From NCBI RefSeq assembly GCF_030252325.1, contig NZ_CP126981.1, positions 2,914,001 through 2,978,000 of the forward strand: a DNA stretch of 64,000 bases, written 5' to 3'. This document shows positions 13,752 through 58,788 of the stretch, piece by piece. The DNA is from Candidatus Mycobacterium wuenschmannii. GTDB lineage: Bacteria; Actinomycetota; Actinomycetes; Mycobacteriales; Mycobacteriaceae. The first letter of the stretch is position 1, and each line of letters begins with the position of its first letter. Position numbers and translations under genes: made by a program. Below the pieces are notes generated by a model. That model was not told where the DNA came from. It saw nothing but the letters and a program-made list of their open reading frames with translations, and searched no databases.

Positions 13752-13770
13752 GTGAGAATGATATTCTCAC
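13752..13770. promoter_or_regulatory. class-1 operator GTGAGAAT-N3-ATTCTCAC
   Basis: A perfect 19-bp palindrome, GTGAGAATGATATTCTCAC, with 8-bp arms. It lies 21-39 bp upstream of the amidohydrolase ATG at 13731 and overlaps the last codons of the upstream DinB gene. It is the best copy of a motif found also at 44157, 45131 (one mismatch) and 58770 (degenerate). It probably overlaps the -10 region. Confidence 0.7.
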
Positions 13771-14351
13771 GCGGAGCTTATGGCAATGCCTCCACCCCCC
13801 GTTTGCGTGCCGGCGTAGAGGTCACGCAGCAGTGCAATCTCCGCGCCGTGGTGTATCGCTTCGCGGTGAATGTGCAGGATGAGGGTCGCCATCGGCTTGT
13901 CCGCATACGGCCCCTCGGCGGGCCCGCACGGCCTCGCCAATTCGTCGGCGTCCAGCGCGGCGACCCCGGCCGTCCAGCGCGCATAGCCGGCATCGAGTTG
14001 AGCGAGCCCCTCCGCAGCGGTCGCCGCGTACCGGAATGAGCCGTAATCCATCGCCGGGCCGCCGAAGTACGATGCGGCGCGCATTCCGAATACGCCCACG
14101 ATGATGTGGCCGAGCCGCCAGGCGATCGTCGTCACCGGTGGGGGTTCGGGCTGGGGGAAGGCGAAGTCGATCACCGTCTCGCCCCCGCCCGCGGCGCCCT
14201 CGCTGCGCTGCTGCCCGCGCGCGCGAACACCCCAACAGCCCGGCACGGGTTCCCAGTGATATTCGGCGTCGGACAGGGACTCGAACCGCGGCCGCAGCGC
14301 GGTCTCCCAGTGAAAGCGAAGCTGGTCGACAAGCTCGGTGGTCCAGTCCAT
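13767..14351 (-). CDS. DinB-family metalloprotein (mycothiol-dependent enzyme-like)
   Basis: A 194-residue four-helix DinB/MDMPI-like protein. Putative metal-binding histidines are seen in WRLGHIIVG in the first half and in HREAIHHGAEIALL near the C-terminus, giving the three-histidine pattern of the family. In actinobacteria such proteins often act as mycothiol-dependent isomerases or transferases; the reaction here is unknown. ATG 14351 begins MDWTTELVDQLRFHW, a usual family start. It precedes the amidohydrolase gene on the same strand by 35 bp, and the class-1 operator overlaps its stop codon, so the downstream operon has its own promoter. Confidence 0.8.
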   Translation of the reverse strand: MDWTTELVDQLRFHWETALRPRFESLSDAEYHWEPVPGCWGVRARGQQRSEGAAGGGETVIDFAFPQPEPPPVTTIAWRLGHIIVGVFGMRAASYFGGPAMDYGSFRYAATAAEGLAQLDAGYARWTAGVAALDADELARPCGPAEGPYADKPMATLILHIHREAIHHGAEIALLRDLYAGTQTGGGGIAISSA

Positions 14352-14450
14352 GCCGTCACGCTACGACGGACCGCTGACAGCCTTTTGTCGAATCGGCTCA
14401 GGCCTCCGACCTGCAGAGGTTAGGGTCTGAGGAAAGGGAGCGGTGATGCT

Positions 14451-14469
14451 ATTCTCCGCTCAGGAGAAT
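14451..14469. promoter_or_regulatory. class-2 operator ATTCTCC-N5-GGAGAAT
   Basis: A 19-bp inverted repeat with perfect 7-bp arms around GCTCA. It lies 41-59 bp upstream of the secreted MmpS-like gene at 14510. The same geometry recurs at 23606 and 25063. TATTCT at its left edge could serve as a -10 element. Confidence 0.65.
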
Positions 14470-14509
14470 GCCAATATCGCACTGTGCTCCAGTGCGGCCG
14501 GAGGTGCGC

Positions 14510-14929
14510 ATGACAACCATCGGTAGAGCCGCGCTGGGGGTCGCCTTGGCAGCCGTGGTGGGGACCGGAACCGCCGCGCCGTCGCGGGCCGACGACCCGC
14601 CGATGCACCAGGTTCGCTACGTGATCACGGCGGCCAGCCCGATCTGGGCCGACATCTACTACCTGGACCAGCAGCCCCAGAAGTACTCCGACTACAGCCA
14701 CAACCCGTACCAGTACACCCCCAACGTCCAGGCCGACATCGCGCCCGGCCATCCGTGGACGTCGCCACCGGTGATGCTGACCGACCCCAACAACTACGCG
14801 ATGGTCGTGGTCAGCACGGGCACCGAGCCTGGCACGCCGATGTTCCATTGCGCGCTGGTCGTCGACGGAGCGGTGGTCGTATCCAACGACGGCCCCAAAG
14901 GCACGCTCTGTTCGCTGCGCACCTGGTGA
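14510..14929 (+). CDS. secreted MmpS-like small protein
   Basis: A 139-residue exported protein. An N-terminal signal peptide (MTTIGRAALGVALAAVVGTG, then cleavage near SRA-DD) is followed by a domain of about 110 residues. The domain pattern (VRYVITAASPIWADIYYLD, then a late FHCALVVDG and a C-terminal LCSLRTW) recalls the periplasmic domain of MmpS proteins, which have two cysteines around a VDG turn. Unlike MmpS it has no adjacent MmpL. ATG 14510 follows a GGAGG site. A class-2 operator lies in its promoter. The function may be lipid binding outside the membrane; this is inference from resemblance. Confidence 0.75.
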   Translation: MTTIGRAALGVALAAVVGTGTAAPSRADDPPMHQVRYVITAASPIWADIYYLDQQPQKYSDYSHNPYQYTPNVQADIAPGHPWTSPPVMLTDPNNYAMVVVSTGTEPGTPMFHCALVVDGAVVVSNDGPKGTLCSLRTW

Positions 14930-14934
14930 GTGGG

Positions 14935-15525
14935 TCAGATCTCGGGGTCGCCCTCGAGATGGCGGAGGTACTCCTCGACGATCTCGACGGTCTCGCGGTG
15001 GCCTGCGGACATGTCGAGCGCCCGCTCGATGACCAGGACGCGAGACACGCTGGTCATCAGCACCGACCACACCAGCGGGGGAAATTTCACCGGGTCGACA
15101 CCGTAGCCCTCGAGGATCGTGGTCAGCGCCTTGCGCTGTTCCTCGCGGAAGCGCTCGGCGTAATAGGCGATCTCGGCCTTCAGCGCTTTGCGATGGTTGG
15201 CCAGCGCGATGAACTCCATGGTGATCGTGGTCGCCGCGGGATCGGTGCTGAACCGCCACAGCGCCCACAGCGGCTGCGGCGCCTGCAGCATCTGCGCCTG
15301 GACCTCGAGTCCTTCCTCGGCGCGACGGCGGAACGCGGCCAGGAACAATTCGTCCATCGTGCGGAAGTAGTAGTGCACCAACTGCGGCTTGAGCGCCGCC
15401 CGTTCCGCCACGCGGCGCGAAGTCACTGCGGCGTAACCCTCTTCGAGCATCAACTGCTCGGCGGCGTCGAGCAGCACCGTCCGGTTCTTGGCGTCCGGTG
15501 CCCCGATCCTGCGGGCCGAAGTCAT
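14935..15525 (-). CDS. TetR/AcrR family transcriptional regulator
   Basis: A 196-residue repressor-type regulator. The N-terminal DNA-binding domain runs from NRTVLLDAAEQLMLEEGYAA to the helix-turn-helix VTSRRVAERAALKPQLVHYY; the rest is a ligand-binding helical domain. ATG 15525 (MTSARRIGAPDAKNR) fits the family; an alternative ATG at 15564 would add 13 residues. It is divergent from the P450 at 15732. Two overlapping palindromes at 15609-15635 lie between them and probably are its operator, so it likely controls itself and that P450. Its stop is 5 bp from the convergent secreted gene. Confidence 0.88.
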   Translation of the reverse strand: MTSARRIGAPDAKNRTVLLDAAEQLMLEEGYAAVTSRRVAERAALKPQLVHYYFRTMDELFLAAFRRRAEEGLEVQAQMLQAPQPLWALWRFSTDPAATTITMEFIALANHRKALKAEIAYYAERFREEQRKALTTILEGYGVDPVKFPPLVWSVLMTSVSRVLVIERALDMSAGHRETVEIVEEYLRHLEGDPEI

Positions 15526-15608
15526 GCTGAGGTTCCACGCTCTCGCCGAAAATTTGCTGAACATGGGTGATCGTAGCGTCGGCCCAGGTTCTCGCCTTGA
15601 CCACGACA

Positions 15609-15635
15609 TTAGCGTCATGCTAAGCAGGTGCTCAG
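15609..15635. promoter_or_regulatory. overlapping palindromes in the TetR-P450 divergent promoter
   Basis: TTAGC-N5-GCTAA (15609-15623) overlaps CTAAGC-N4-GCTCAG (15620-15635, one mismatch). Both lie between the divergent TetR and P450 starts, 84-122 bp from each. This is the usual place for a TetR autoregulatory operator. The assignment to the neighbouring TetR is inference. Confidence 0.5.
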
Positions 15636-35322: not shown

Positions 35323-36531
35323 TTAAGTGACGGCACCGATAGTTTTGAGCTCGATGATGCGGTCCCAATCGAGGCCGAGCTCCTGCAGGATTTCGTCGGT
35401 TTGCTCGGCGAACCCGGGGGCGGGTCCCGAGACGGGCGCGGCCACGTCGAACTGCACCGGGTTGGCAACCAGTTCGAGTTCACCGGCCTGCACTACATAT
35501 TCGTTGGCGCGGATCTGAGCGTCGCCCGCCGCCTGGAGGGTGTCCTGCACCGGCGCCCACGGCCCGGCGAGGGTGGCGAAGCGTTCGCTCCACTCCGCGA
35601 GCGTGCGGGTGGCCATCGCCTTGCTCAGAATCTGCACGGCCTCCGCGGTGTTGGCGGCGATCTTCTCGCCGCTGTCGAAGCGCGGATCGTCGGCCAGGTC
35701 GGGCTGGTCGATGTGCCGGCACACGTCGGCCCAGAACTTGCTCGCCTGCATCATCACGAACGAGATGTAGCGGTCGTCCGATGTCCGATACAGCCCCACC
35801 AACGGATTGATCGGCGAGCCGTGGGCGCCGGGCGGGAAGGCTTCCATGCGCTGGTTCAGGTGCACGGTCAGCGCCACGGTGTGCCCAAGCGACCACAGGC
35901 CGCTACCCAGCAGCGAGACGTCAACGATCGACGGCTCGCCGGTGCGCTCCCGCTTGAGCAGGGCGGCGGCGATGCCACCCGCCAGGTTGGTACCGGAAAT
36001 GGTGTCGCCGTAGGCGGGTCCGGGCGGCCCCACCATGCCCTCGGTTCCGGGCGGGGTCATCGTGGCCGCGGTGCCGGCCCGGCACCAGAACGCGGTCATG
36101 TCGTAGCCGCCCTTTTCCGCCTCCGCGCCGCGCGGACCCAACGCGCTGCCGCGGGCATAGACGATCGTCGGATTGATCGCGCGGATGTCGTCGACGTCGA
36201 TGCCGAACTTCTCACGGTGGCCGGGCAGGAAGCTGGTCAGGAACACGTCCGAGCGGCGGGCCAACTCGTACAGCACTTCTCGGCCCTCGGGCACCGAAAT
36301 GTCCAGCCCGACGCTGCGTTTGCAGCGATTGGCGTGCTCGATGTTGGGGTTGGGATCGCCTTCGACCTTGAGCATGCCGGTCTGCCGCAGACCGCGCTGC
36401 GGATCGCCGGTCACGGCATGCTCCACCTTGACGACGTCGGCGCCCCACTCGGCGAGCACCGCACCGGCAGACGGAACGAACCCGTACATCGCGACCTCGA
36501 GGACGCGGATGCCCTCCAGCGGCCCGCTCAC
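35323..36531 (-). CDS. CaiB/BaiF family III CoA transferase
   Basis: A 402-residue CoA transferase or racemase-fold enzyme. The N-terminus reads PLEGIRVLEVAMYGFVPSAG, followed by GADVVKVEHAVTGDPQRG. The likely catalytic aspartate is in KGGYDMTAFWCRAG, and GGIAAALLKRERTGE is the usual family segment. It would move CoA onto a carboxylate intermediate or act on an acyl-CoA isomer. GTG 36531 overlaps the ALDH stop by four bases. Together the aldehyde dehydrogenase and the transferase could turn an aldehyde to an acid and then to a CoA ester. The mce operon starts 143 bp downstream, so read-through is possible. Confidence 0.9.
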   Translation of the reverse strand: MSGPLEGIRVLEVAMYGFVPSAGAVLAEWGADVVKVEHAVTGDPQRGLRQTGMLKVEGDPNPNIEHANRCKRSVGLDISVPEGREVLYELARRSDVFLTSFLPGHREKFGIDVDDIRAINPTIVYARGSALGPRGAEAEKGGYDMTAFWCRAGTAATMTPPGTEGMVGPPGPAYGDTISGTNLAGGIAAALLKRERTGEPSIVDVSLLGSGLWSLGHTVALTVHLNQRMEAFPPGAHGSPINPLVGLYRTSDDRYISFVMMQASKFWADVCRHIDQPDLADDPRFDSGEKIAANTAEAVQILSKAMATRTLAEWSERFATLAGPWAPVQDTLQAAGDAQIRANEYVVQAGELELVANPVQFDVAAPVSGPAPGFAEQTDEILQELGLDWDRIIELKTIGAVT

Positions 36532-38048
36532 GCCGCACCCCCGGCAGCCGATACCGCCGGGACGGCGATCGTCTTGCGCTCCAAGAACTCCTCGAGACCC
36601 GCGACGCCCATCTCACGACCCACGCCCGACTGCTTGAACCCACCGAAGGGCGCGTCGGCGCTGAAGTAATTGCCGCCGTTGACCGAGAACGATCCGGCGC
36701 GGATACGCCGCGCGACGGCCAGCGCGCGGTCCTGATCGGCACTGAACACCGCTCCGGCCAGTCCGTAGATGGAGTTGTTGGCGATGCGAACCGCGTCGTC
36801 GTCATCGTCGAACGCGATCACCGCGAGCACCGGACCGAAGATCTCCTGCTGCGCGATCTCGCTGTCGGGGTCGACGTTGGTCAGCAGTGTGGGCGCATAG
36901 AAGTAACCCGGGTCGAGCTTCGTGCCGCCGGTGACCAGCGTCGCGCCGTCGGCCACGGCGCGCTGCACCATGCCGTCGACCTTCTCGCGCTGGCGCTCGT
37001 TGATCAGCGGGCCCATGTAGGTCTTGGGGTCGGCCGGGTCGCCGTGGCGGACCTTGGCGAAGTTCTGCGCAATCAGGTCGACGATCTCGTCGTGGTGGGT
37101 GCGCGGCACCAGCAGCCGCGAGGTCAGCGCGCAGCCCTGGCCGGCATGGGTGACCATGGAGAACGCGGCGAACATGCTGGCGCCGGCGAAGTCGGCGTCG
37201 TCGAGCAGAATCGCCGCGGACTTGCCACCGAGTTCGAGGAAGACCTTCTTGACGGTCTCGCTGGCCGCGGCCATGATCCGGCGCCCGACCGGAGTGGAGC
37301 CGGTGAACGTGATGACGTCGACATCGGGGCTGGTGGTCAAGGCCTCGCCGACAGCGGCATCCGACGAGCTCAGCACGTTGACGACGCCGGGCGGGATGTC
37401 GGTGTGGTTCGCGATGATCTCGCCCAGCGCCAGCGTGACGAGCGGGGTGTCCGGCGCGCCCTTGAGAATGACTGTGCATCCGGCGGCGAGCGCCGGCGGC
37501 AGCTTCGCCAGCGCCAACTGGTTCGGGTAGTTGTAGGCGATGATCGCGCCGACCACCCCGGCGCCTTCCTTCTCTACCCACCGCTTGTGCCGCATGCCGC
37601 GCGACTCGATTTCACCGAGGTCTTCGGTCATCGAGTAGTCGCGCAACAGGTCCGCGTAGTAGCGAACGATCTTGATCGGCTCGTCCAGTTGGGCGCCCTG
37701 GGTCAGGGCGCGAGTGGCACCGACTTCGGCGATGGTGAGCTCGCGCAGTTCCTCCGCGTGGTCCAGCAGCGCCTGATGCAACTGCTCGAGGCACCGGACG
37801 CGGAACGCGGCGTCGGTCGACCATGTCGTGGTGTCGAAAGCCCGGCGCGCGGCCGCGATGGCCTCCAGCGCTTCGCCGATGCCCGCGTCAGGGGCGTAGC
37901 CGATGACGTCACCGGTGGCGGGGTTGACCGAAGCGAAGACGCGCTCGGTTGCGACGAGCTGACCGTCGATCAGCAGCCGCCGGTCGGAGTTACCGTCCGT
38001 CGATGGGCCGTGGCCCACGGTGGCGGTGGCGGCTTGCTGCGGTGGCAT
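36528..38048 (-). CDS. aldehyde dehydrogenase (NAD(P)-dependent)
   Basis: A 506-residue ALDH-superfamily enzyme oxidising an aldehyde to a carboxylic acid. The catalytic cysteine is in HAGQGCALTSR and the general base glutamate in LELGGKSAAIL. Coenzyme-binding motifs ITFTGSTPVGRRI and the C-terminal PFGGFKQSGVGREMG are present. ATG 38048 is clear. It is followed with 4-bp overlap by the CoA transferase. A degenerate class-2 site (38077-38095) lies 29-47 bp upstream in the divergent promoter shared with the SDR at 38305. It could take the product of the mycofactocin SDR at 39042. Confidence 0.93.
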   Translation of the reverse strand: MPPQQAATATVGHGPSTDGNSDRRLLIDGQLVATERVFASVNPATGDVIGYAPDAGIGEALEAIAAARRAFDTTTWSTDAAFRVRCLEQLHQALLDHAEELRELTIAEVGATRALTQGAQLDEPIKIVRYYADLLRDYSMTEDLGEIESRGMRHKRWVEKEGAGVVGAIIAYNYPNQLALAKLPPALAAGCTVILKGAPDTPLVTLALGEIIANHTDIPPGVVNVLSSSDAAVGEALTTSPDVDVITFTGSTPVGRRIMAAASETVKKVFLELGGKSAAILLDDADFAGASMFAAFSMVTHAGQGCALTSRLLVPRTHHDEIVDLIAQNFAKVRHGDPADPKTYMGPLINERQREKVDGMVQRAVADGATLVTGGTKLDPGYFYAPTLLTNVDPDSEIAQQEIFGPVLAVIAFDDDDDAVRIANNSIYGLAGAVFSADQDRALAVARRIRAGSFSVNGGNYFSADAPFGGFKQSGVGREMGVAGLEEFLERKTIAVPAVSAAGGAA

Positions 38049-38076
38049 TCAGGCTCCTCAACACGTGGATAATTGC

Positions 38077-38095
38077 ATTCTCATCCGGGGCGAAT
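38077..38095. promoter_or_regulatory. degenerate class-2 operator ATTCTCA-N5-GGCGAAT
   Basis: Arms ATTCTCA and GGCGAAT keep the 7-5-7 geometry of class-2 sites but are not a perfect inverted pair (GAGAAT is changed to GCGAAT). It is placed 29-47 bp upstream of the ALDH ATG, as at the better sites. Confidence 0.4.
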
Positions 38096-41951: not shown

Positions 41952-43130
41952 TCAGCGGGCGGGCAGCCCCAACACCCGCTGGGCGATGATGTTGCGCTGT
42001 ATCTCCGACGTACCCCCGGCGATGGTGCCGGAGAAGCTGCGGGCGTAGCGCTCGAACCAACTGCCGAAGTAGTGATCGAGGTTCATCGGCTCGTAGGGTC
42101 CGGACATCGCCGGGTGCAACAATCCGTCGGAACCCGCTGCGGACAAAGCGTTTTCGCACGCCTGCCGCTCGGCTTCAGAGCCGAGCAGCTTGAGCACCGA
42201 CAGGGCGGGCACGTCTTCCTCTCCGCGAGAGGCGCGGGCCAGCGCGACCGAACCGAGCAGTCGCAGCGCCTGGCGGTCCATGATCGCTGTCGCGAAATGG
42301 TCGCGCTCGAGGGCACTCGACGGGTGGAAGTCGGTGATGACGTTGTCGAGCCGGTCGGCGAATCCGAGCCACATCATCGTCCGCTCGTGTCCCAGTGAGC
42401 CGTTGGCGACGCCCCAGCCGCCGTTGAGCGGACCGACCAGGTTTTCCGCCGGCACCTTCACGTCCTCGAAGAACACCTCGTTGAAGTCGAGGTTGTCCTG
42501 ACCGCAGATGTCCGGGAAGGGCCGACGCGTCACACCCGGGGTGTCCGTGGGGATGACGAGCGCGCTGATTCCCTTGTGCTTCGGCGCATCTGGATCGGTG
42601 CGCACGAAGGTCAGCAACACGTCGGCGTCGTGCGCGCCCGACGTCCACACCTTCTGTCCGTTGACCACGAAGTGATCGCCGTCGAGCACCGCCTTGGTAC
42701 GCAGCGACGCCAGGTCCGATCCGGCGCTGGGCTCGCTCATGCCCAGCGACGCGGTGATCTCAGCGCGCAGGATAGGGACCGCCCAGCGCTGCTTCTGCTC
42801 GTCGCTGCCGAACGAAATCAGCGACGCGGCAATGATATTGACACCCTGGGGATTGAAGCTGTGATAAATCCGCCGCTTGCACAACTCCTCCAGGTACACG
42901 TACTGCTGCAGGACGGTGGCATTTCGGCCGCCGAATTCCGGCGGCTGAGTGGGCAGCAGCCAGCCGTTGTCGAAGAGCAACCGCTGCCAGCGACGGGCCC
43001 AATCAGGCATGTGCGACACCGATTTCGGTCGCTCCACCGCCTCGGCGGCGGCGGTCGGCACGTGCTGGTCGAGGAACGCGACGAACTCGTCGCGGAAGGC
43101 CTCGACGTCGGGCTCAAAGGTGAGTTGCAC
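41952..43130 (-). CDS. acyl-CoA dehydrogenase (FadE), larger subunit of a pair
   Basis: A 392-residue flavoprotein that introduces a double bond into acyl-CoA. FAD-binding motifs are ITASLGMSEPSAGSDLASLR and FVVNGQKVWTSGA. The C-terminus FSGTIAGGTSEIQRNIIAQ with RVLGLP is canonical. Its neighbour at 43114 is a shorter ACAD, and the two overlap by 17 bp. Such paired genes in sterol catabolism (for example FadE26/27 or ChsE1/E2) form alpha2beta2 enzymes, so a heterotetramer is likely. GTG 43130 follows GAGGAG. The class-1 operator at 44157 probably controls the pair. Confidence 0.92.
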   Translation of the reverse strand: MQLTFEPDVEAFRDEFVAFLDQHVPTAAAEAVERPKSVSHMPDWARRWQRLLFDNGWLLPTQPPEFGGRNATVLQQYVYLEELCKRRIYHSFNPQGVNIIAASLISFGSDEQKQRWAVPILRAEITASLGMSEPSAGSDLASLRTKAVLDGDHFVVNGQKVWTSGAHDADVLLTFVRTDPDAPKHKGISALVIPTDTPGVTRRPFPDICGQDNLDFNEVFFEDVKVPAENLVGPLNGGWGVANGSLGHERTMMWLGFADRLDNVITDFHPSSALERDHFATAIMDRQALRLLGSVALARASRGEEDVPALSVLKLLGSEAERQACENALSAAGSDGLLHPAMSGPYEPMNLDHYFGSWFERYARSFSGTIAGGTSEIQRNIIAQRVLGLPAR

Positions 43131-44124
43131 GGTACTCCTCGGTAACCCTCGCGCGGTGCTCGGCGGTTCCGCCGAGCATCAGCTCGCCGGCCTTCGCTCG
43201 TTTGAGGGCGAACTGCAGATCGTTCTCCCAGGTGAAGCCCATCGCGCCGAAGAGCTGCAGGCCGTGCCGGAAAACCAACGACTGGCATTCGCCCGCACCG
43301 GCTTTCGCCATCGCGGCAGCCAGTCGGCGGCGCGGGTCGTTACCGGCGATCGTCAGCGCGGAGTAGTAGGCCAGCGCCCGGGCCCGCTCGATGGCGACGT
43401 GCATATCGGCCGCCTTGTGCTGGACCGCCTGGAACGACCCGATCGCCACCCCGAACTGTTGCCGACTACGGACATGGTCGAGCACCAGGTCCAGAATGCG
43501 TTGGCACGCTCCGACCATGGTGATCGCCATCCCCATCAGCGCGACGTGATGCGCGGCCTCGGTGTCGACCCGCACACGGGCGGCGTCGGGCAGACGCAGC
43601 CCGTCGAAGGTCAGGTCGGCGACGTGCAGCACCGGGTCGAGCACCGCGCTGCGGCGCGTGGACAACTGCCCGCCCGCATCGCCGGTGTCGACGACGAACA
43701 CCGCGGCGTCGGTGACGACGGCCAACCGCTCCGCACGATCGCCGTCCAGCACGTGCCGTGCGGTGCCGTCCAGCACCCACTCGTCGCCGTCTCGGTGCGC
43801 GCTGATCCCGCCGTAGACGGCGGTGCCGGACGCCTGCGGGTCGAAACGCTCCCCGACCAGCGGCGCGTACTGGGTCATAGTCGCCAGGAACGGGGTCGGG
43901 TCCGTGGCGCGCCCCAGCTCTTCGAGGACAATGGCCAGTTCGACGGCGTTCTCGGCGTCGCTCATCTCGGTCCAGCCGTGCTCGCGGTAGGCCTTCCAGA
44001 CCGGTGCGGGGTCGGTGCCGTCCTCGGCTATGGCCCTGACCAGTGACGGAGGGCATTGCTTACCGACCGCGTCGCGCACGGTTTCTTGCCAGAGCCGCTG
44101 ATCGGCGTCGAATTCCAGCAGCAT
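43114..44124 (-). CDS. acyl-CoA dehydrogenase (FadE), smaller subunit of a pair
   Basis: A 336-residue ACAD-fold protein. It has the helical N-terminus (FDADQRLWQETVRDAVGKQC), a beta domain that is shortened, and a C-terminal domain with HGLQLFGAMGFTWENDLQFA. The usual GGTSEIQ ending is replaced by LMLGGTAEHRARVTEEY, which suggests loss of part of the active site, as in the partner subunits of heteromeric ACADs. ATG 44124 has GAAGGAG upstream; the much longer open frame is rejected as it crosses the divergent promoter. A class-1 operator lies 33-51 bp upstream. Confidence 0.88.
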   Translation of the reverse strand: MLLEFDADQRLWQETVRDAVGKQCPPSLVRAIAEDGTDPAPVWKAYREHGWTEMSDAENAVELAIVLEELGRATDPTPFLATMTQYAPLVGERFDPQASGTAVYGGISAHRDGDEWVLDGTARHVLDGDRAERLAVVTDAAVFVVDTGDAGGQLSTRRSAVLDPVLHVADLTFDGLRLPDAARVRVDTEAAHHVALMGMAITMVGACQRILDLVLDHVRSRQQFGVAIGSFQAVQHKAADMHVAIERARALAYYSALTIAGNDPRRRLAAAMAKAGAGECQSLVFRHGLQLFGAMGFTWENDLQFALKRAKAGELMLGGTAEHRARVTEEYRATHL

Positions 44125-44156: not shown

Positions 44157-44175
44157 GTGAGAATACTATTCTCTT
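44157..44175. promoter_or_regulatory. class-1 operator GTGAGAAT-N3-ATTCTCTT
   Basis: GTGAGAATACTATTCTCTT keeps GAGAAT and ATTCTC exactly and differs from the site at 13752 only in the centre and outermost bases. It sits in the divergent promoter between the ACAD pair (start 44124) and the dehydrogenase at 44248, so it could control both directions. Confidence 0.65.
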
Positions 44176-44247: not shown

Positions 44248-45138
44248 ATGGACATCGGGTTTATCGGGTTGGGCCACATGGGTTTTCCAATGGCGCGGCG
44301 GCTGCTCGAGGCGGGCCACGACGTCGTGGCCTACGACACCCGTGCGGAGGCCGTCGATCGTCTGGTCGCCCTCGGCGCTCGAGCGGCCGCCTCCCCGCCG
44401 CAGGTCGCAACCCGCGCCGAGACCGTGCTGGCCAGCCTGCCGTCCCCGCAGGTAGCACTCGAGGTGGCCGCGGGCGTCGCCGCCGGTGACCGGGTCGTGC
44501 GTTACGTCGACCTGTCGACGATCGGCAGTGCCACCGCGGCGCGCATCCACGAACTGCTGGCCGCGCACGACATCGCCGCGATCGACTGCCCGGTCAGCGG
44601 CGGAGTCGGCGGCGCCGAGGCTGGAACCCTCGCACTGATGGTGTCGGGACCTCACCCGGAATTCGAGATACTGCGCCCGGTGCTGGAAACGCTGGGCCGA
44701 CCGATGCACGTCGGCGAGCAACCCGGCTCGGCACAGACGATGAAACTGATGAACAACATCCTGGCCGCCACCGTTATGGTCGCGACATCGGAAGTCGTTG
44801 TGATGGGCGCGAAGTCGGGCCTCGACCCGCAGGTGATGATCGATGTGCTGAACGCGGGGTCGGGCGCGACGAGCGCCAGCCGGGACAAATTCCCCCGGTC
44901 GATTCTGCCGCGCACATTCGACTACGGCTTCGCCACCGGGCTGATGGTCAAGGACGTCCGGCTGTATCTCGAGGAGGCGCGGGCGCTCGAGGCCCCGGTC
45001 GCGATCGCCGAGGCCGTCGCGGGCCTCTGGGAGACCACCCTCGAGGACGAGGGTGCCGACTCCGATTTCACCTCCGCGATCAAGCCGCTCGAACGGGCCG
45101 CCGGAGTCACCTTCGGGCTCCGCAAACCGGGAGAATGA
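44248..45138 (+). CDS. beta-hydroxyacid dehydrogenase (3-hydroxyisobutyrate dehydrogenase family), copy 1
   Basis: A 296-residue NAD(P)-dependent enzyme. The nucleotide-binding motif is IGFIGLGHMGFPMARRLLE. The substrate-binding motif is DCPVSGGVGGAEAGTLAL and the catalytic lysine is in MKLMNNILAA. The family oxidises 3-hydroxyacids or reduces semialdehydes. ATG 44248 is chosen because GAGGAGG is upstream; the upstream frame start at 44185 lies beside the operator. It leads a plus-strand set with two amidohydrolases, a Rieske protein and a hydrolase. Two further family members are at 53462 and 54277. Confidence 0.9.
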   Translation: MDIGFIGLGHMGFPMARRLLEAGHDVVAYDTRAEAVDRLVALGARAAASPPQVATRAETVLASLPSPQVALEVAAGVAAGDRVVRYVDLSTIGSATAARIHELLAAHDIAAIDCPVSGGVGGAEAGTLALMVSGPHPEFEILRPVLETLGRPMHVGEQPGSAQTMKLMNNILAATVMVATSEVVVMGAKSGLDPQVMIDVLNAGSGATSASRDKFPRSILPRTFDYGFATGLMVKDVRLYLEEARALEAPVAIAEAVAGLWETTLEDEGADSDFTSAIKPLERAAGVTFGLRKPGE

Positions 45139-45145
45139 TATTATC
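45131..45145. promoter_or_regulatory. near class-1 site GAGAAT-GAT-ATTATC
   Basis: One mismatch from the core of the site at 13752. It overlaps the stop codon of the dehydrogenase gene and lies about 180 bp upstream of the amidohydrolase at 45324. The match could partly be chance, but the 185-bp gap suggests a promoter here. Confidence 0.4.
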
Positions 45146-45323: not shown

Positions 45324-46415
45324 GTGATCGAGCACCCGGACGGGACACGCACGCCGCTGATCGACGCGAGCGTGCACATCTTCTTCTCGTCCAACAAGGA
45401 GCTGCGCTCGGTACTGCGCGAGCCGTTCAAGAGTCGCGGGTTCCCCGACTACGAGATGGACTGGTACGGCGCGCCGGGCGGAGAGTACGCGCCCAAGACC
45501 CGCGGACCCGAACGTCAGTACCCCGGCTCGGACCCGGATTTCGTTGGCAATGAGCTTTTTTCGAATCGTGGCGTGGATGTCGCGGTGCTACATCCGATGG
45601 CGCGTGGCATCATGCCTGACCGCCACCTCGGCAGCGCCCTGCACGCCGCGCACAACGAGATGATGGTGTCGAAGTGGTTGGAGCACAGCCACTTCGGCGA
45701 CCGTTTCCGCGGCACGATCCGGGTGAACCCCGACGACATCGCCGGCGCGCTGAAAGAAATCGAGAAATGGCGTTCGCACCCCCGGGTGGTGCAGATCGGG
45801 GTGCCGCTGCAGTCCCGGGAGTTGTACGGGAAGCCGCAGTTCTGGCCGCTGTGGGAGGCCGCCGTCGACGCGGGCCTGCCGGTTGCCGCGCACATCGAGG
45901 TCGGCTCGGGCATCGCCAATCCGCCCACCCCGAACGGCAATACCCGCGTCTACGAGCATTACGTGAGCTTCATGGCGCTGAACTTCCTGTACCACCAGAT
46001 GAACATGATCGCCGAGGGCGTCTTCGAGCGCTTTCCGGGGCTGAAGTTCGTCTGGGGCGACGGCGCCGCAGACTTCATCACGCCGTTCATGTGGCGGATG
46101 GACACCTTCGGCCGGCCGCACCTCGAGCAAACGCCGTGGGCACCCAAGATCCCCAGCGACTATCTACCGGGGCACATCTACTTCGTCCAGGGCAGCCTCG
46201 ACGGGCCCGGCGACGCGGATTTCGCGGGCGAGTGGTTCGGCTTCACCGGTAAGGAAGACATGGTGATGTTCGGCTCGAGCTACCCGCACTGGCAGCTCGG
46301 CGACATGACCAAACTGCCCAAGGCACTGTCCCCCGAGCAGCGGGAGAAGCTGTGCTGGCGCAATGCAGCCAACCTCTACGGGATCGACATTTCGGCCGAT
46401 CTCGCGGCCGGCTAG
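45324..46415 (+). CDS. amidohydrolase family 2 protein, copy B
   Basis: A 363-residue TIM-barrel metalloenzyme. The N-terminal metal segment is LIDASVHIFFSS (D-x-x-x-H). Further features are AAHIEVGSGI, the histidine/tyrosine region NTRVYEHYVSFMALNF and the late GSSYPHWQLGD motif, where the usual aspartate before YPHW is serine. That change may alter metal binding or catalysis compared with copy C (SSDYPHW). GTG 45324 is the start. It is followed 41 bp later by copy C, and both resemble each other in length and layout. Decarboxylase or ring-cleavage hydrolase activity is possible. Confidence 0.86.
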   Translation: MIEHPDGTRTPLIDASVHIFFSSNKELRSVLREPFKSRGFPDYEMDWYGAPGGEYAPKTRGPERQYPGSDPDFVGNELFSNRGVDVAVLHPMARGIMPDRHLGSALHAAHNEMMVSKWLEHSHFGDRFRGTIRVNPDDIAGALKEIEKWRSHPRVVQIGVPLQSRELYGKPQFWPLWEAAVDAGLPVAAHIEVGSGIANPPTPNGNTRVYEHYVSFMALNFLYHQMNMIAEGVFERFPGLKFVWGDGAADFITPFMWRMDTFGRPHLEQTPWAPKIPSDYLPGHIYFVQGSLDGPGDADFAGEWFGFTGKEDMVMFGSSYPHWQLGDMTKLPKALSPEQREKLCWRNAANLYGIDISADLAAG

Positions 46416-46456: not shown

Positions 46457-47602
46457 ATGACGCTGACCCATTCGCAAGAGCGTGTACCGGCTGCGGAGCG
46501 CATCGCCGTCCGCTGCGTCGACTCGGACGTCCACCCGGCGCCCAAACGCGGCGAGCTCACCCCGTATATCCCGGAGCCGTGGCGCAGCAAGTACTTCCTC
46601 AACCGGGACGTCGGCGAGCAGATCTATTACGACGCCCCCGATTACGCGCACAGCTATGCGATGCGCATCGACGCCTTCCCCAAAGACGGTGAATTCGCCT
46701 GCAGTGACCCGGACATGGCGTTCCGGCAGCTGATCATGGAGGCGGGTTCGGACATCGCGATCCTGGAACCCGCGGCCTACCCGGCCCGTCTTCCCGAGGC
46801 GCAGCACGCCATGTCGGCGGCGCTCAACGAATGGCAGGCACATCACTGGCTCGACAGCCACAACAACTGGCACGAGCGGTGGCGCGGCTCGATCTGCGCG
46901 GCCATCGAGGAGCCGGAGGAATCGGTCCGCGAGATCGAGAAGTGGGCCGGACACCCCTTCATGGCGCAGATCCTGATCAAGGCCGAGCCGCGGCCGTCGT
47001 GGGGCAACCCGAAGTACGACCCGATCTGGGCCGCCGCCACAAAGGCCGACATGCCGGTGAGCTGCCACCTGTCGCGCAGCCAGTTCGACGAGCTGCCCGC
47101 CCCGCCGGTCGGCTACCCGAGCTACAACCACGACTTCATGGTCACGTACTCGCTGCTGGCCGCGAACCAGGTGATGAGCCTGATCTTCGACGGCGTCTTC
47201 GACCGCTTCCCGACGCTGCACATCGTGTTCGTGGAGCACGCGTTCAGTTGGATCCTGCCGCTGATGTGGCGAATGGACGCGATCTACGAAGCGCGCAAGT
47301 CCTGGCTGGACATCAAGCGCAAGCCGTCGGAGTACGTCAAGGAGCACATCAAGTTCACCACGCAGCCGCTCGACTACCCGGAGGACAAGACCGAGTTGAC
47401 GCGCGCGCTGGAGTGGATGGAGTGCGAGAAGATCCTGCTGTTCTCCTCCGATTACCCGCACTGGACGTTCGACGACCCGCGCTGGCTGGTCAAGCACCTG
47501 CCCAAGCACGCCCGGGACGCCGTCATGTACAAGAACGGCATTGCGACGTACCACCTTCCGGAGACGGTCCCCGTCCTCGAGGGTCAAGTCCGGGTGCTCT
47601 GA
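46457..47602 (+). CDS. amidohydrolase family 2 protein, copy C
   Basis: A 381-residue metal-dependent hydrolase or decarboxylase of the same family as copies A and B. The N-terminal motif is RCVDSDVHPAPKRGEL (D-x-D-x-H), the middle includes MPVSCHLSRSQFDEL, and the C-terminal catalytic motif is LLFSSDYPHWTFDD with the aspartate intact. ATG 46457 has GGGAGAGCGAGGAG upstream. Its stop is 1 bp before the Rieske TTG start, so the Rieske gene is probably coupled to it. An operon 45324-48876 is likely. Confidence 0.88.
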   Translation: MTLTHSQERVPAAERIAVRCVDSDVHPAPKRGELTPYIPEPWRSKYFLNRDVGEQIYYDAPDYAHSYAMRIDAFPKDGEFACSDPDMAFRQLIMEAGSDIAILEPAAYPARLPEAQHAMSAALNEWQAHHWLDSHNNWHERWRGSICAAIEEPEESVREIEKWAGHPFMAQILIKAEPRPSWGNPKYDPIWAAATKADMPVSCHLSRSQFDELPAPPVGYPSYNHDFMVTYSLLAANQVMSLIFDGVFDRFPTLHIVFVEHAFSWILPLMWRMDAIYEARKSWLDIKRKPSEYVKEHIKFTTQPLDYPEDKTELTRALEWMECEKILLFSSDYPHWTFDDPRWLVKHLPKHARDAVMYKNGIATYHLPETVPVLEGQVRVL

Positions 47603-47603
47603 G

Positions 47604-47993
47604 TTGCCAGACGAAGTCGAGCCGCGTCTCGCGCAGGGACGCGAGCACATTGTCGCGACCGTCGACGAGATTCCTTCGGGGAAGCACAAATTGGTGCCGA
47701 TCGGCCGGCATGGCGTCGGCGTGTACAACGTCAACGGGACCTTCTACGCAATCGCGAATTACTGCCCACATCAAGGTGGTCCGCTGTGCTCCGGGCGTGC
47801 CCGCGGGCGCACGATCGTAGATGAGACGGCACCGGGTGACGCGGTGATGGTGCGCGACAAGGAGTACATCTACTGCCCCTGGCATCAGTGGGGCTTCGAG
47901 TTGGCGACCGGCACCACCGCGGTCAAGCCGGAGTGGAGCATCCGCACCTATCCGGTGCGAGTCGTCGGTAACGACGTCTTGGTGCAGGCCTGA
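47604..47993 (+). CDS. stand-alone Rieske [2Fe-2S] ferredoxin-like protein
   Basis: A 129-residue Rieske protein. Cluster ligands are in NYCPHQGGPLC (Cys and His) and YCPWHQWGFELATG (Cys and His), the bipartite CxH...CxxH pattern. It has no catalytic oxygenase domain, so it is either the ferredoxin of a Rieske oxygenase encoded elsewhere or an electron carrier for the local enzymes. TTG 47604 is the most likely start, right after the amidohydrolase stop; no in-frame ATG or GTG lies before the domain. It is followed 16 bp later by an alpha/beta hydrolase. Confidence 0.85.
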   Translation: MPDEVEPRLAQGREHIVATVDEIPSGKHKLVPIGRHGVGVYNVNGTFYAIANYCPHQGGPLCSGRARGRTIVDETAPGDAVMVRDKEYIYCPWHQWGFELATGTTAVKPEWSIRTYPVRVVGNDVLVQA

Positions 47994-50660: not shown

Positions 50661-50953
50661 AGATCCGGCTGGACCGCACCATCTGCGACGGCTTTGGTTT
50701 GTGCGCCAAGCACGCGCCGAAGCACTTCTCCCTCGACGACTGGGGGTATGCGTCGCTGGAAGGCGATGGCGAGGTCGCCGAGGGTGACCGTGACGCGGTG
50801 ATGCGGGCGCTGCTGGACTGTCCCGTGCACGCGATCACCGAGTGGGGTGAACGCCGCGAGGCCGAACCGCACGACCGGTCGATCGGTGTCGACGATCCGG
50901 CCGAACACCTGAAAACCGAAGCGAACGAAGCGGAGTGGGGGTTCACCCGTTGA
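50657..50953 (+). CDS. ferredoxin with C-terminal extension, partner of the NuoF-like protein
   Basis: A 98-residue ferredoxin of the [3Fe-4S]/[4Fe-4S] P450-partner class. The cluster motif is ICDGFGLCAKHAP with CPVHAI later; the spacing is CxxxxxC...CP, with phenylalanine at the position that is histidine in the other ferredoxins. About 30 extra residues at the C-terminus (GERREAEPHDRSIGVDD onward) are acidic. GTG 50657 overlaps the NuoF-like stop (GTGA), and its own stop overlaps the thiolase start. The tight coupling suggests a fixed electron path: NADH to the flavoprotein to this ferredoxin to an oxygenase. Confidence 0.9.
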   Translation: MKIRLDRTICDGFGLCAKHAPKHFSLDDWGYASLEGDGEVAEGDRDAVMRALLDCPVHAITEWGERREAEPHDRSIGVDDPAEHLKTEANEAEWGFTR

Positions 50954-52596
50954 CCGGACGTCCGCTGCCGTTGCTCACCGACGACAACGAGTTCTTCTGG
51001 AAGTCGGGCGCCGACGGCACGCTACGTCTGCAGGAGTGCACCGACTGCAACGCGCTGATCCACCCGCCCGCGCCCGTGTGCCGATACTGCCGCTCCCGGA
51101 ACCTCGGGGTGCGGGCGGTGTCGGGCCGTGCCACGCTCGCCGGGTTCACAATCAACGAAAGATTCAGCCTGCCAGGTCTTCCCGCGCCCTACGTCGTCGC
51201 CCAGGTTGCGATCGCCGAAGATCCGCGAGTGCGGCTGACCACCAACATCATCGACTGCGAGCCCGAACTGCTGGAACTGGGTCAGCACGTCGAGGTGGTC
51301 TTCGAGCAGGACGACGACGTGTGGCTGCCGCTGTTTCGTCTGGTCGACGGCGCCGAACCCGCGAAGTTGCCGATCGACGAGATCGAACCGGAGCGCTTCG
51401 GTGAGTTCGTCCGGCCGATGCTGACGACGGAGAAGTTCGAAGACAAGGTGGCGCTGACCGGAATCGGCATGTCGCAGATCGGTCGCCGGTTGATGGTGCC
51501 GGCGCTGTCGCTGACCATCGATGCGTGCGAGGCGGCGATCGCCGATGCCGGGCTGTCCATCGACGACATCGACGGTCTCTCAACGTATCCCGGTGGCGGG
51601 AACATGGGCGGGTTCGGCGAGGGCGGGGTCACCGCGCTGGAGGCCGCCATGGGTATCCGGCCCACGTGGCACAACGGCGGCATCGAGACCTTCGGTCCCG
51701 GCGGTTCGGTGATCGCGGCGATGCTTGCGGTCGCGGGTGGGCTGGCCCGCCATGTGCTGTGCTTCCGAACGCTGTGGGAGGCGACCTTCAACGAGCACAT
51801 GAAGCTGGGCAAGATCGTCCCGTCGGGCGGACGCCGCGCCGACTGGCTGCTGCCGTTTGGCGCGACTTCCGCGGCACACACGTTGGCGCAGAACGCCCAG
51901 CGCCATTTTCACCGCTACGGCACCACCAAGGAGACGCTGGGCTGGATCGCGCTGAATCAGCGCGCCAACGCCGAACTCAACCCGACCGCGGTGTACCGGA
52001 CCCCTATGACGATGGACGACTACCTGACCGCGCGCCCGATCACCTCGCCGTTCGGGCTCTACGACTGCGATGTGCCGTGCGACGGTGCCGTCGCAGTGAT
52101 CGTGTCCGCCGTCGACGCGGCGCAGGACACGGCGAAGCCACCGGTGTATGTCGATGCCGTCGGCACCCAGATCATCGAGCGAATCGACTGGGACCAAAGC
52201 ACATTGACGCACGAGCCGCAGGTGCTGGGCCAGGCCGCGCACCTGTGGACCCGAACGTCGCTGACGCCACAGGATGTCGACGTCGCCGAGTTGTACGACG
52301 GGTTCACGATGAACTGCCTGTCGTGGATCGAGGCGCTCGGATTCTGTGGCATCGGCGAGGCGCGCGACTTTCTGGACGGTGGCAAGAACATCGCCCGTGA
52401 CGGGCAATTGCCGCTGAACACCCACGGCGGACAGCTGTCACACGGGCGGACGCATGGCATGGGTCTGCTGCACGAGGCGATCACCCAGTTGCGCGGGGAG
52501 GGCGGCGATCGCCAGGTCGCCGACGCGCGGGTCGGCGTGGTCAGCAGCGGTGGCCTCACGCCCAGTGGAGTCTTGTTGTTGCGGGCCGACCGGTGA
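50950..52596 (+). CDS. fused DUF35 (OB-fold/Zn-ribbon) and thiolase-like (Ltp2-type) protein
   Basis: A 548-residue fusion. Residues 1-140 form a DUF35 unit, with a zinc ribbon CTDCNALIHPPAPVCRYC followed by an OB fold. The remainder is a thiolase-like domain, from VALTGIGMSQIGRRLMVPAL. The nucleophile position lacks cysteine (ETFGPGGSVIAAMLAVAGGL), as in the sterol aldolase Ltp2; YDGFT and NTHGGQLSHGRTHGMG are conserved in that group. In cholesterol catabolism Ltp2 works with the DUF35 domain of ChsH2 to cleave the side chain; here both are in one chain. The start TTG 50950 overlaps the ferredoxin stop (TTGA); GTG 50935 is an alternative. Confidence 0.88.
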   Translation: MTGRPLPLLTDDNEFFWKSGADGTLRLQECTDCNALIHPPAPVCRYCRSRNLGVRAVSGRATLAGFTINERFSLPGLPAPYVVAQVAIAEDPRVRLTTNIIDCEPELLELGQHVEVVFEQDDDVWLPLFRLVDGAEPAKLPIDEIEPERFGEFVRPMLTTEKFEDKVALTGIGMSQIGRRLMVPALSLTIDACEAAIADAGLSIDDIDGLSTYPGGGNMGGFGEGGVTALEAAMGIRPTWHNGGIETFGPGGSVIAAMLAVAGGLARHVLCFRTLWEATFNEHMKLGKIVPSGGRRADWLLPFGATSAAHTLAQNAQRHFHRYGTTKETLGWIALNQRANAELNPTAVYRTPMTMDDYLTARPITSPFGLYDCDVPCDGAVAVIVSAVDAAQDTAKPPVYVDAVGTQIIERIDWDQSTLTHEPQVLGQAAHLWTRTSLTPQDVDVAELYDGFTMNCLSWIEALGFCGIGEARDFLDGGKNIARDGQLPLNTHGGQLSHGRTHGMGLLHEAITQLRGEGGDRQVADARVGVVSSGGLTPSGVLLLRADR

Positions 52597-56383: not shown

Positions 56384-56581
56384 GTGACAAAGAAGATCGA
56401 CGTCGACTGGGGTCTGTGCGAGAGCAACGGGGTCTGCATGGGCGTCGCCCCGGACATCTTTCGGCTCGAGGACGACGACACCCTGACCGTCTTGCAGGAC
56501 GAGGTCACCCCCGACAACGAAGACGTGGTGCTCGACGCCGTCCGGCAGTGCCCCAGGCAGGCCATCGCGATCAACGAATAG
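56384..56581 (+). CDS. [3Fe-4S]-type ferredoxin, P450 partner
   Basis: A 65-residue ferredoxin downstream of the P450 at 55168. The cluster motif is GLCESNGVCMGVAP and QCPRQAIAIN, again CxxxxxC...CP with asparagine in place of the usual histidine. GTG 56384 is chosen with GAGGTGG upstream, in frame after an extra GTG at 56375. It is most likely the dedicated electron donor of that P450. Confidence 0.92.
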   Translation: MTKKIDVDWGLCESNGVCMGVAPDIFRLEDDDTLTVLQDEVTPDNEDVVLDAVRQCPRQAIAINE

Positions 56582-56920: not shown

Positions 56921-56969
56921 AGGGTCGCGCGTCGGCCAATTCCACAGCCGTGGCCTCTGTTTCGCGGCG
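56921..56969 (+). repeat. 49-bp direct repeat, right copy
   Basis: Second copy of the element at 56598, three mismatches. It ends 8 bp before the stop of the convergent DUF1330 gene. Confidence 0.75.
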
Positions 56970-56976
56970 GAGGGTG

Positions 56977-57261
56977 TCAGAACCCGGAAAGTATCACCGC
57001 GTTGCAGTCGGCCGCGGCCTGACGCAGTTTGGCCGCCGCCTGATAAGCGTCGGACTCATACCACGCGCGCGCGGCCTCCACCGATTCGAATTCCAGCACG
57101 ACGGTCTGGTCACCGTGCCAGGTGCCTTCGATCGTCTCGGCCTTCGTGTCGACGGCGAGGATGTTGACACCACCCATCGCAGCGCCGGCGGCCTTGCCGT
57201 AGGCCTTCATGCCTTCCGGGTCTTTGATGGCTTCGGTGAGAATGACATAGCCTTTGGGCAT
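56977..57261 (-). CDS. DUF1330 family protein
   Basis: A 94-residue protein of the DUF1330 type, a dimeric alpha-beta barrel fold. It has the family start GYVILTEAIKDPEGMKAYGK and the central motif TIEGTWHGDQTVVLEFESVE, followed by EAARAWYESDAYQAA. The function is unknown; small barrels of this kind can act as monooxygenases, isomerases or dehydratases. ATG 57261 lies 15 bp after the ferredoxin stop, so it is the third gene of the P450-ferredoxin-DUF1330 operon. Confidence 0.9.
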   Translation of the reverse strand: MPKGYVILTEAIKDPEGMKAYGKAAGAAMGGVNILAVDTKAETIEGTWHGDQTVVLEFESVEAARAWYESDAYQAAAKLRQAAADCNAVILSGF

Positions 57262-57276
57262 AGTCGTTGCCGCTCC

Positions 57277-57465
57277 TTACCTTTCGCTGATGGCCTGCTC
57301 GGGACAGCATTCGATGGCCTCCTGAGCGGCCGATTCCAGATCGGTCGGAACCTCGGAGTCGATCGCCACCGCGTAACCGTCATCGGTCAGGCTGAACACG
57401 TCGGAGCACAGGGTCAGGCACATCCCGTGGCCGCGACAACGCTGATCGTCTACCCAAACCTTCAT
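57277..57465 (-). CDS. [3Fe-4S] ferredoxin, P450 partner
   Basis: A 62-residue ferredoxin with motif RCRGHGMCLTLCSD and CCPEQAISE, the CxxHxxC...CP type. Extra cysteines are at the second part of the first motif and next to the CP. ATG 57465 overlaps the P450 stop by four bases (ATGA). It is the electron donor for the P450 at 57462. Confidence 0.93.
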   Translation of the reverse strand: MKVWVDDQRCRGHGMCLTLCSDVFSLTDDGYAVAIDSEVPTDLESAAQEAIECCPEQAISER

Positions 57466-58742
57466 GCCGGCGTGAACTCCAGGTGCAGATCGATGAGCCC
57501 ACGCAGTATGTAGGTCGGAACATATTGGTAGCGGCGGTCATTCGCCGGCCCGTGATGCTGTTCGCTGATCCGGATGTCGGAGGTCCGGTCGAGCAGTCGC
57601 TCCAGCGCCACCCGCGTCTCGGCCCGCGCCAGCGGCGCGCCTGGGCAGCTGTGGATGCCGCGGCCGAACGCAATGTGTTGGCGCGCATTCTTTCTGGCTG
57701 GGTCGAACGCGGTGGGGTCCTCGAATCGGCGCGGATCACGGTTGGCCGCGGCCTGCACGATCATCACCGTGCTGCCCGCCGGCAGGTCGACCCCGCCGAC
57801 GTTGACCGGCCTCCGGTTCATCCGGAAGTCGCCTTTAACAGGGCTCTCGTGGCGCAGCGATTCCTCGATGAAGTTCGGCAGCAGGCTGCGGTCCTTGCGC
57901 AACTGGGCCTGGATGTCCGGCCGCTCTCCCAGCGTCTGCAGCGAGGCGCCCAGCAGTCGCACGGTGGTTTCCTGGCCGGCCGAAAAGACGTTCGCCGCAA
58001 CGCGAGCCACGTCGCCGACGTCCGGTGTTGAACCGTCCGGGTAGGTGGCGGTCGCCAGCCCGGTCAGCACGTCGTCGCGCGGATTCGCGCGGCGGTCGTT
58101 GACGTAATCGGAGAACAACCCGTAGAGGAACTCCAGCGGGCTGTGCGCCAGCGACTCCTTGCCGGTGCCGCCGACACCGCCACCGGAGTGTTCGCGGATG
58201 CCCTGGACGAACTTGTCCCGGTCCTCCATCGGAACGCCCAGCAGGTCGGCGATCACCAGCAGCGTGAAGGGGCTGGCGAAGCCTTTGATGAACTCGCCGT
58301 GACCGGGCGCCAGGAAATCGTCGAGGGCCTGATCGGCCAGATCCCACATGGCGTCTTCGTTCTCCTTGAGACGCTTCGGGGTGATCAGCCGCATCAGCAG
58401 CGAGCGGTGGTTGGTGTGCGTCGGCGGATCGAGGGTGGGCAACTGGTCGCTGAAGGGCAGCTCGTCGCGGTGCTGCACGATCAACTCGGTGATGTCGCTG
58501 TCGCCCTTGTCCTCGAGGCTCACCGGGAATCCGGGGAACGGCCCGGTCACCGAGTTGCACGACGACCATGTCTCGGCGTCGTTGAGGACGGCGCAGGCCT
58601 CCTCCCAGCCGGTCACCATCGTGACGTCGTGATGCTTCTCCTTAGCCACGGGGCACTGTCCACGCAGCGACTCGTAGTAGGGGTAAGGGTCCGCGATGAG
58701 GTCCGTGCCACGGAAAAAGTCCAGCTCGGCGGGGTCACTCAT
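57462..58742 (-). CDS. cytochrome P450, type I paralogue
   Basis: A 426-residue P450, paralogous to the one at 15732. The heme loop is FGRGIHSCPG with Cys366; the I-helix motif is FSAGQETTVRLL, and the K-helix EESLRHESP. Unlike the paralogue, it keeps its ferredoxin gene downstream. ATG 58742 is chosen over GTG/ATG choices upstream because MSDPAELDFFRGTDLIADPY is a usual start. A degenerate class-1 site lies 28-46 bp upstream. A TetR-hypothetical operon precedes it on the same strand. Confidence 0.94.
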   Translation of the reverse strand: MSDPAELDFFRGTDLIADPYPYYESLRGQCPVAKEKHHDVTMVTGWEEACAVLNDAETWSSCNSVTGPFPGFPVSLEDKGDSDITELIVQHRDELPFSDQLPTLDPPTHTNHRSLLMRLITPKRLKENEDAMWDLADQALDDFLAPGHGEFIKGFASPFTLLVIADLLGVPMEDRDKFVQGIREHSGGGVGGTGKESLAHSPLEFLYGLFSDYVNDRRANPRDDVLTGLATATYPDGSTPDVGDVARVAANVFSAGQETTVRLLGASLQTLGERPDIQAQLRKDRSLLPNFIEESLRHESPVKGDFRMNRRPVNVGGVDLPAGSTVMIVQAAANRDPRRFEDPTAFDPARKNARQHIAFGRGIHSCPGAPLARAETRVALERLLDRTSDIRISEQHHGPANDRRYQYVPTYILRGLIDLHLEFTPA

Positions 58743-58769
58743 GGTCTCGCACCGTTCCAATCTCGATCA

Positions 58770-58788
58770 GTGAGAATGTGCCTCTCAG
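58770..58788. promoter_or_regulatory. degenerate class-1 operator upstream of P450
   Basis: GTGAGAAT-GTG-CCTCTCAG keeps the left arm exactly and TCTCA of the right arm. It lies 28-46 bp upstream of the P450 ATG, the same spacing as other class-1 sites. Confidence 0.45.

Follow-up and report, generated by a model that had tools for sequence, protein, structure and literature searches.

Four copies of a short inverted repeat, GAGAAT-N3-ATTCTC, in a 64,000-nucleotide stretch of the Candidatus Mycobacterium wuenschmannii genome (NZ_CP126981.1, positions 2,914,001 to 2,978,000; here called the window) raise the question of whether they mark a regulon and, if so, which regulator binds them. The repeat is very probably the operator of an autoregulated TetR-family repressor of a catabolic regulon, encoded at 79444-80163 (window coordinates being continued beyond 64000 for outside features), and binding of this protein to the repeat is predicted. 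All four sites that an earlier note on this DNA had named are present, at 13754, 44159, 45131 and 58772, with 0, 0, 1 and 2 mismatches, respectively, and the distances to gene starts given there are close to those recomputed here, namely 22 bp (start at 13731), 34 bp (acyl-CoA dehydrogenase, ACAD, at 44124), 29 bp (cytochrome P450 at 58742) and 178 bp (45324). The arms at 13752-13770 extend to 8 bp (GTGAGAAT-GAT-ATTCTCAC). Recurrence of the repeat far above chance had been claimed, and this was borne out both in the window, where 24 matches with at most 3 mismatches compare with 12.1 +/- 3.5 in 100 shuffles, none of which reached 24, and in the genome-wide scan that had been proposed as a check. 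The genome (5.10 Mb, single contig) carries 8 perfect sites, all of them between called genes, as compared to a first-order expectation of 0.10 (although 2 turned up in one of the two genomes simulated) and to none for the pattern read backward.

Six of these eight perfect sites fall within 106 kb (13754, 44159, 72499, 79373, 114683 and 119868), a stretch that also holds one-mismatch sites before genes at 38068, 45131 and 81094, the first of which is absent from the earlier list. The two distant perfect sites precede a phosphotransferase gene, where the site is retained before the orthologous gene in 2 of 14 relatives (83% and 81% identity; L007), and a thioesterase gene (L008), for which no counterpart of the site was found among the 14 relatives fetched. 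The idea of a dispersed regulon therefore stands as to one operator marking a regulon, while its sites are mainly local, with few distant ones. That the repeat is a product of chance, or has no regulatory role, is most improbable: its weaker versions do occur at the level of the first-order simulations (6 one-mismatch sites genome-wide against 2 and 6 simulated; with two mismatches, 76 in the genome and 75 and 70 in the simulations), but the excess and clustering of perfect sites, their intergenic position and their conservation before orthologous genes refute chance for the perfect class. The backward pattern gave 5 matches with at most 2 mismatches as compared to 90 for the motif, its base steps being rarer. 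Weak sites were accordingly counted only if backed by position or conservation, and site 58772 as well as the distant one-mismatch sites (L012, L013 and L014, the last inside an open frame) may still be due to chance. Since the weaker mismatch classes do not exceed the simulations, 58772 is not significant by itself; it gains support from one relative (G109, L196), in which the orthologous P450 gene is preceded at 35 bp by a perfect site.

The earlier note had found no TetR in the window to be clearly the regulator, and had advised a search for one whose own promoter carries the site. Among the 134 TetR_N matches listed genome-wide (from the scoring of 150 out of 208 candidates, so that weak TetRs may have escaped), only the 79444 TetR has a site with at most one mismatch just upstream, this being the perfect site 79373, 56 bp before the ATG at 79444, a start kept in an alignment of 81 upstream regions (the caller script chose the GTG at 79510). 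Six further TetR genes and an IclR gene lie in the 156-kb stretch over which genes and their starts were called by a simple codon-usage script; the best sites near them have 3-5 mismatches, and the TetRs at 14935, 18335, 59352 and 63626 were rejected as regulators on this ground. The 79444 protein matches PF00440, the TetR_N helix-turn-helix, with 30.4 bits (cut-off 24), its helix-turn-helix is nearly invariant across 16 sequences, and its model adopts an all-helical TetR fold (pLDDT 83) for which the top matches listed are TetR-type (best TM-score 0.74-0.81), the closest being EthR2, YvdT, Rv0078 and acyl-CoA-binding FadR proteins at about 16-23% identity. Seven genomes (G024, G030, G077, G081, G094, G109 and G357) hold two regulator copies each, with approximately 78-82% identity to the 79444 TetR.

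Motif and regulator tend to be inherited together. Within the genus (118 genomes; G009 and G106, at 36-38% identity, were not counted as orthologue holders) a perfect site is present in 93 of 95 genomes with the TetR as compared to 2 of 23 without it, while the backward control gave a single match in all 118, in G109. The family sample of 301 genomes includes 272 outside the genus; there, 46 of 49 TetR holders have at least one site and 39 at least two, as compared to one site in 20 and two sites in one (G403) of the 223 TetR-less genomes, so that at least two occur in 1 of 223 and the total of 22 sites agrees with the expectation of 0.10. Fisher p values (6e-19 in the genus; 6e-32 and, for at least two sites, 1e-36 outside it) are too small owing to relatedness, though the effect size is clear. 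Motif and TetR therefore most likely make up a single conserved switch that turns a degradation pathway on and off.

By co-inheritance a regulator cannot be told apart from its targets, and the sites might belong to some other protein (the IclR at 111077, a further TetR or a regulator encoded elsewhere), the 79444 TetR being just one of the targets borne on the same island; we regard this as improbable. An IclR orthologue is preceded by a site in three relatives (G028, G090 and G073), but in the genome under study the IclR gene has none (best 3 mismatches). The TetR at 59352, the second for which co-inheritance was compared, is present in 86 of the 118 genus genomes (E up to 1e-60) and fails this test: of the nine genomes that have the 79444 TetR without it (sites in brackets: G034 (1), G049 (6), G064 (0), G065 (5), G071 (1), G084 (4), G097 (0), G099 (6) and G111 (8)), five keep 4-8 sites. 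The site in the promoter of the 79444 TetR is, in addition, almost invariant. In other genera a site again stands upstream of the TetR (G144, G169, G258, G277, G288, G388, G217 and G155), and also upstream of paralogues 62% (G388) and 59% (G217) identical, at approximately 85 and 170 bp.

The near-invariance of the TetR promoter site was established in 80 named genomes, being the best 80 of 401 confirmed stretches that hold relatives of the TetR (86-95% identity), the nearest named holders belonging to Mycobacterium in the broad sense. In 79 of the 80 the aligned GTG has a perfect site that starts 129-145 bp upstream of it; M. tilburgii (L146) alone departs from this, having kept the TetR alongside a three-mismatch operator remnant, with no site of at most one mismatch in the locus. 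A second site lies within 1.3 kb after the aligned GTG in 72 of the 80 genomes (46 perfect, 26 with one mismatch), and just one further site with at most one mismatch was found in the 967 kb of these loci. Conservation in the upstream alignment of 81 genomes is most evident in the operator, a TACAAT block resembling a -10 element 13 bp downstream of it, and the region from the ATG on. With the usual 17-bp spacer before TACAAT, the -35 element of the TetR gene would fall inside the operator, and bound TetR is proposed to block RNA polymerase because the operator covers this inferred -35 element in the TetR promoter and elsewhere is near the start codon. The base that follows each GAGAAT arm is A in 55-69% of cases, so that the centre often reads TATTCT, and we speculate that it could itself act as a -10 element; a longer pattern with outer T...A proved too strict, being found in 4 of 21 genomes.

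The position of the sites in relatives speaks to the possibility, raised beforehand as a ground for refutation, that the motif might occur equally often inside genes or lack enrichment before starts. Every perfect site of 14 TetR-holding genomes from three genera was located, with genes called and compared with the proteins of the present genome: of these 86 sites, 79 are intergenic, 6 extend a few bases into a called gene and 1 is intragenic (L195, perhaps a wrong start call), and the nearest called start lies 10-60 bp away for 64 and at most 300 bp away for all 86. The targets also recur. The orthologue of the PF04909 gene 12541 has a perfect site upstream in every one of the 14 (13 of them at a distance of 22-25 bp, G073 at 43 bp from the called start), the CoA ligase 118433 and/or the ferredoxin reductase 119918 stand behind sites in 12, the TetR in 11 (in several divergent from an ACAD), the CMD 72531 and/or the Rieske oxygenase 73070 in 11 (often divergent from the PF04909 gene 70907), and the short-chain dehydrogenase/reductase (SDR) 114736 in 5. 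In 8 of the 14 a perfect site that is not next to the TetR gene precedes the ACAD 43114 orthologue, and in six of these 8 the ACAD is divergent from the PF04909 gene 45324, which there lies 203-241 bp from the shared site.

The proposed switch would work as follows. As a dimer, the TetR would occupy the palindrome upstream of its own gene and that of nine more genes or operons within the 106 kb, each having its called start 17-74 bp away from a perfect site (12541, 43114, 44248, 72531, 78154, 113790, 114736, 118433 and 119918, the last at 35 bp), while control of 36528, 45324, 57462, 70907, 81239 and the genes at the two distant sites is less certain. An intermediate of the pathway, by analogy likely an acyl-CoA, would release the TetR and so switch on CoA ligases, ACADs, a Rieske oxygenase with CMD, a ferredoxin reductase and SDRs, perhaps also P450s and an aldehyde dehydrogenase (ALDH), together with one to four PF04909 proteins that resemble parts of dinuclear-metal monooxygenases. 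The P450s and the ALDH are linked through weaker sites only. Features of the window and the TetR gene are collected in Table 1.

Table 1. Coordinates of the predicted operators, the genes next to them and the candidate regulator gene
Feature	Coordinates	Strand	Remarks
Operator	13754..13768	.	perfect core, 8-bp arms 13752-13770; 22 bp 5' of PF04909 gene 12541-13731
Operator-like site	38068..38082	.	1 mismatch; flanked by ALDH and SDR genes that diverge from it
Operator	44159..44173	.	perfect core; divergent promoter region
Operator-like site	45131..45145	.	1 mismatch; overlaps 3' end of 44248-45138; 178 bp 5' of 45324
Operator-like site	58772..58786	.	degenerate, 2 mismatches; 29 bp 5' of P450; weak alone
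Acyl-CoA ligase (AMP-binding)	11109..12533	-	next after 12541, same direction
PF04909 'amidohydrolase'	12541..13731	-	nearest structures 4dzi, PtmU3
Aldehyde dehydrogenase	36528..38048	-	19 bp from site 38068; followed by CoA-transferase III gene 35323-36531
Acyl-CoA dehydrogenase subunit	43114..44124	-	34 bp from operator; followed by second ACAD 41952-43130
3-Hydroxyisobutyrate dehydrogenase-like protein	44248..45138	+	divergent from ACAD; 74 bp from operator
PF04909 protein, AibH1-like	45324..46415	+	nearest structures 8sm7/8sm8/8sm6, AibH
PF04909 protein, AibH2/SfbO-like	46457..47602	+	same operon as 45324
Small Rieske ferredoxin (99 aa)	47694..47993	+	PF00355, E 2.9e-11; gene after 46457; like AibG
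Cytochrome P450	57462..58742	-	close relative of CYP150A6 (6dcd); ferredoxin 57277-57423 downstream
TetR-family regulator	79444-80163 (L021:15444-16163; genome 2993444-2994163)	+	15 kb past window end; 239 aa

Several observations weigh against this reading of the sites. The TetR is present without a perfect site in two genomes of the genus (G064 and G097) and three outside it (G219, G323 and G331), and no perfect site was seen upstream of the TetR in G268, G361 and G354. Conversely, 23 genomes without a detected TetR, some of them incomplete, carry 1-2 sites (2 in the genus, G052 and G078, with one each, and 21 outside). Seven sites in TetR-less genomes, taken as an intragenic control, are uninformative, with 2 in called genes and 5 outside them but 2 of these 5 at loci without nearby gene calls; one of the sites, in G139 (66% complete), precedes a 49% homologue of 70907 by 55 bp. 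Co-inheritance alone could reflect the inheritance of a whole island, and it is from site position alone that we infer repression rather than activation. A -10 spacing common to all sites was not found over 135 gene sides in relatives, a fixed hexamer at one spacing having been rejected (TANNNT counts of 9, 4, 7 and 4 at offsets 9, 12, 13 and 14), and the promoter geometry described above therefore applies to the TetR gene only. Some units, finally, are far from their site, such as 70907 at 299 bp, and for KstR2 PMC3068626 gives a gene 285 bp from the motif as not controlled. Because of these long distances, control of 70907 and 45324 is the less certain.

Genes annotated as amidohydrolases deserve attention among the targets, as PF04909 includes the dinuclear monooxygenases PtmU3, AibH2 and SfbO, according to PMC7782822, PMC10811679 and PMC10401708. 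Judged by sequence, 12541 and three less certain targets resemble the dinuclear-metal monooxygenases PtmU3, DitZ (known by the name of its PDB entry) and AibH1H2, and three of these four site-linked proteins keep the metal-ligand positions. The 12541 protein scores 282 bits with 4dzi and 75 bits with PtmU3 and, in an alignment to 6omp, keeps the PtmU3 metal-ligand positions including Glu313, the first Asp/His pair lying in a separate weak segment; the adjoining ligase gene 11109 is probably in the same operon. The product of 70907-72199 (L021:6907-8199) scores 362 bits with DitZ and 111 bits with PtmU3 and, likewise aligned to 6omp, keeps the PtmU3 ligand positions, with Asp in place of Glu313, as in DitZ. 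For the remaining two the likeness is to AibH1H2 with AibG/AibF, in that the gene next after an AibH1-like and AibH2-like pair encodes a small Rieske protein; a ferredoxin reductase gene (119918-120934) lies near a perfect operator. In 45324 two to three of the six metal-ligand positions are replaced, resembling an AibH1-type partner, while 46457, which matches 8sm7, SfbO-type structures and AibH2, keeps six of six AibH2 positions against 6m1w_B (ligands as named in PMC7782822), with Thr at the second-shell Asp342 position. We presume 46457 to be the catalytic subunit and the Rieske protein 47694 its electron donor.

According to PMC7782822, PtmU3 acts in diterpenoid biosynthesis as a beta-hydroxylase and can take substrates ligated to CoA, and for this reason a terpenoid- or steroid-like acid is a fair guess, by analogy, for the substrate of the pathway. 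It is possible, though we hold this tentatively, that under one widespread mycobacterial TetR the amidohydrolase-fold dinuclear oxygenases (of the PtmU3/DitZ, 4dzi and AibH1H2 plus Rieske types), the Rieske oxygenase and the P450s would hydroxylate polycyclic terpenoid- or steroid-like acyl-CoAs; this is not put higher because the sites lie 178-299 bp from 45324 and 70907. The genes labelled as amidohydrolases are nevertheless good candidates for the young dinuclear oxygenase class of the PtmU3/AibH2 type, and the regulon suggests when they would be switched on.

Known systems place the proposed TetR in a familiar setting. KstR and KstR2, which repress cholesterol catabolism in mycobacteria, are likewise TetR-type regulators, and a short palindrome marks their own promoters as well as divergent ones within a catabolic cluster close by; the motif-to-start distances for KstR2 (22, 39, 22, 23 and 82 bp in PMC3068626) resemble the 17-74 bp seen here. 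The earlier note had considered the motif unlike those of KstR and KstR2, and it does differ: the KstR2 motif appears in that same paper as AnCAAGnnCTTGnT as opposed to GAGAATN3ATTCTC, the KstR motif as given in the note is another one, and the target genes of both are different. The 79444 TetR was rejected as KstR (20.7 bits against an NCBIfam equivalog cut-off of 280) and, given its operator, as KstR2. KstR3 (Mn_4965) of Mycolicibacterium neoaurum is another mycobacterial TetR repressor, and it too controls an operon for catabolism of the sterol type; this HBC operon, compared by description only, is unlike the direct neighbours of the 79444 TetR, and deletion of KstR3 raised four genes (an aldolase, a DUF35 gene, a reductase and one upstream; PMC10398937). 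Among the acyl-CoA-sensing FadR/FasR-type TetRs and their kin, EthR2, YvdT and Thermus thermophilus FadR (lauroyl-CoA) are among the best folds, but differ from the 79444 TetR in their low identity.

A metal-type box of the Fur or Zur kind, as an alternative to a TetR operator, is very hard to credit. The AT-rich arms are slightly like Fur boxes, and some papers containing GAGAAT appear to concern Fur or iron; against this, three free bases separate the arms, the scanned proteins are catabolic ones and include none for metal uptake, and the motif tracks the TetR gene across genomes. TetR catabolic regulons are of a known kind, but a literature search, mostly outside subscription journals, found no paper on this motif or its regulon. 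Eleven significant TetR motifs are presented as logos in PMC4482099, and overlap with GAGAAT-N3-ATTCTC is possible. An operator that had gone unnoticed is thereby tied to a definite regulator and gene set in 95 of the 118 genus genomes sampled, or about four in five.

Further genes of the genome may be recorded here. Two open reading frames, G000:C1:3078074-3078889 and 2009614-2010420 (453 and 495 aa), each carry two TetR_N domains, in the manner of Mce3R. The cluster at 105775-113397 (L023:1775-9397), which sits in the island, encodes a 3-hydroxyphenylpropionate hydroxylase and a carboxyethylcatechol dioxygenase (MhpA/MhpB-like), an alpha/beta hydrolase, two KstD-like dehydrogenases and the IclR; it has no site with at most one mismatch in this genome, while G028, G090 and G073 have a perfect one in the gap that separates the IclR gene from the hydrolase gene. 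Small single-cluster ferredoxins are encoded at 50657-50953, 56384-56581 and 57277-57423, two of them adjoining P450 genes, and the gene at 50950-52596 encodes a fused protein with a ChsH2-type OB-fold and a thiolase-like part.

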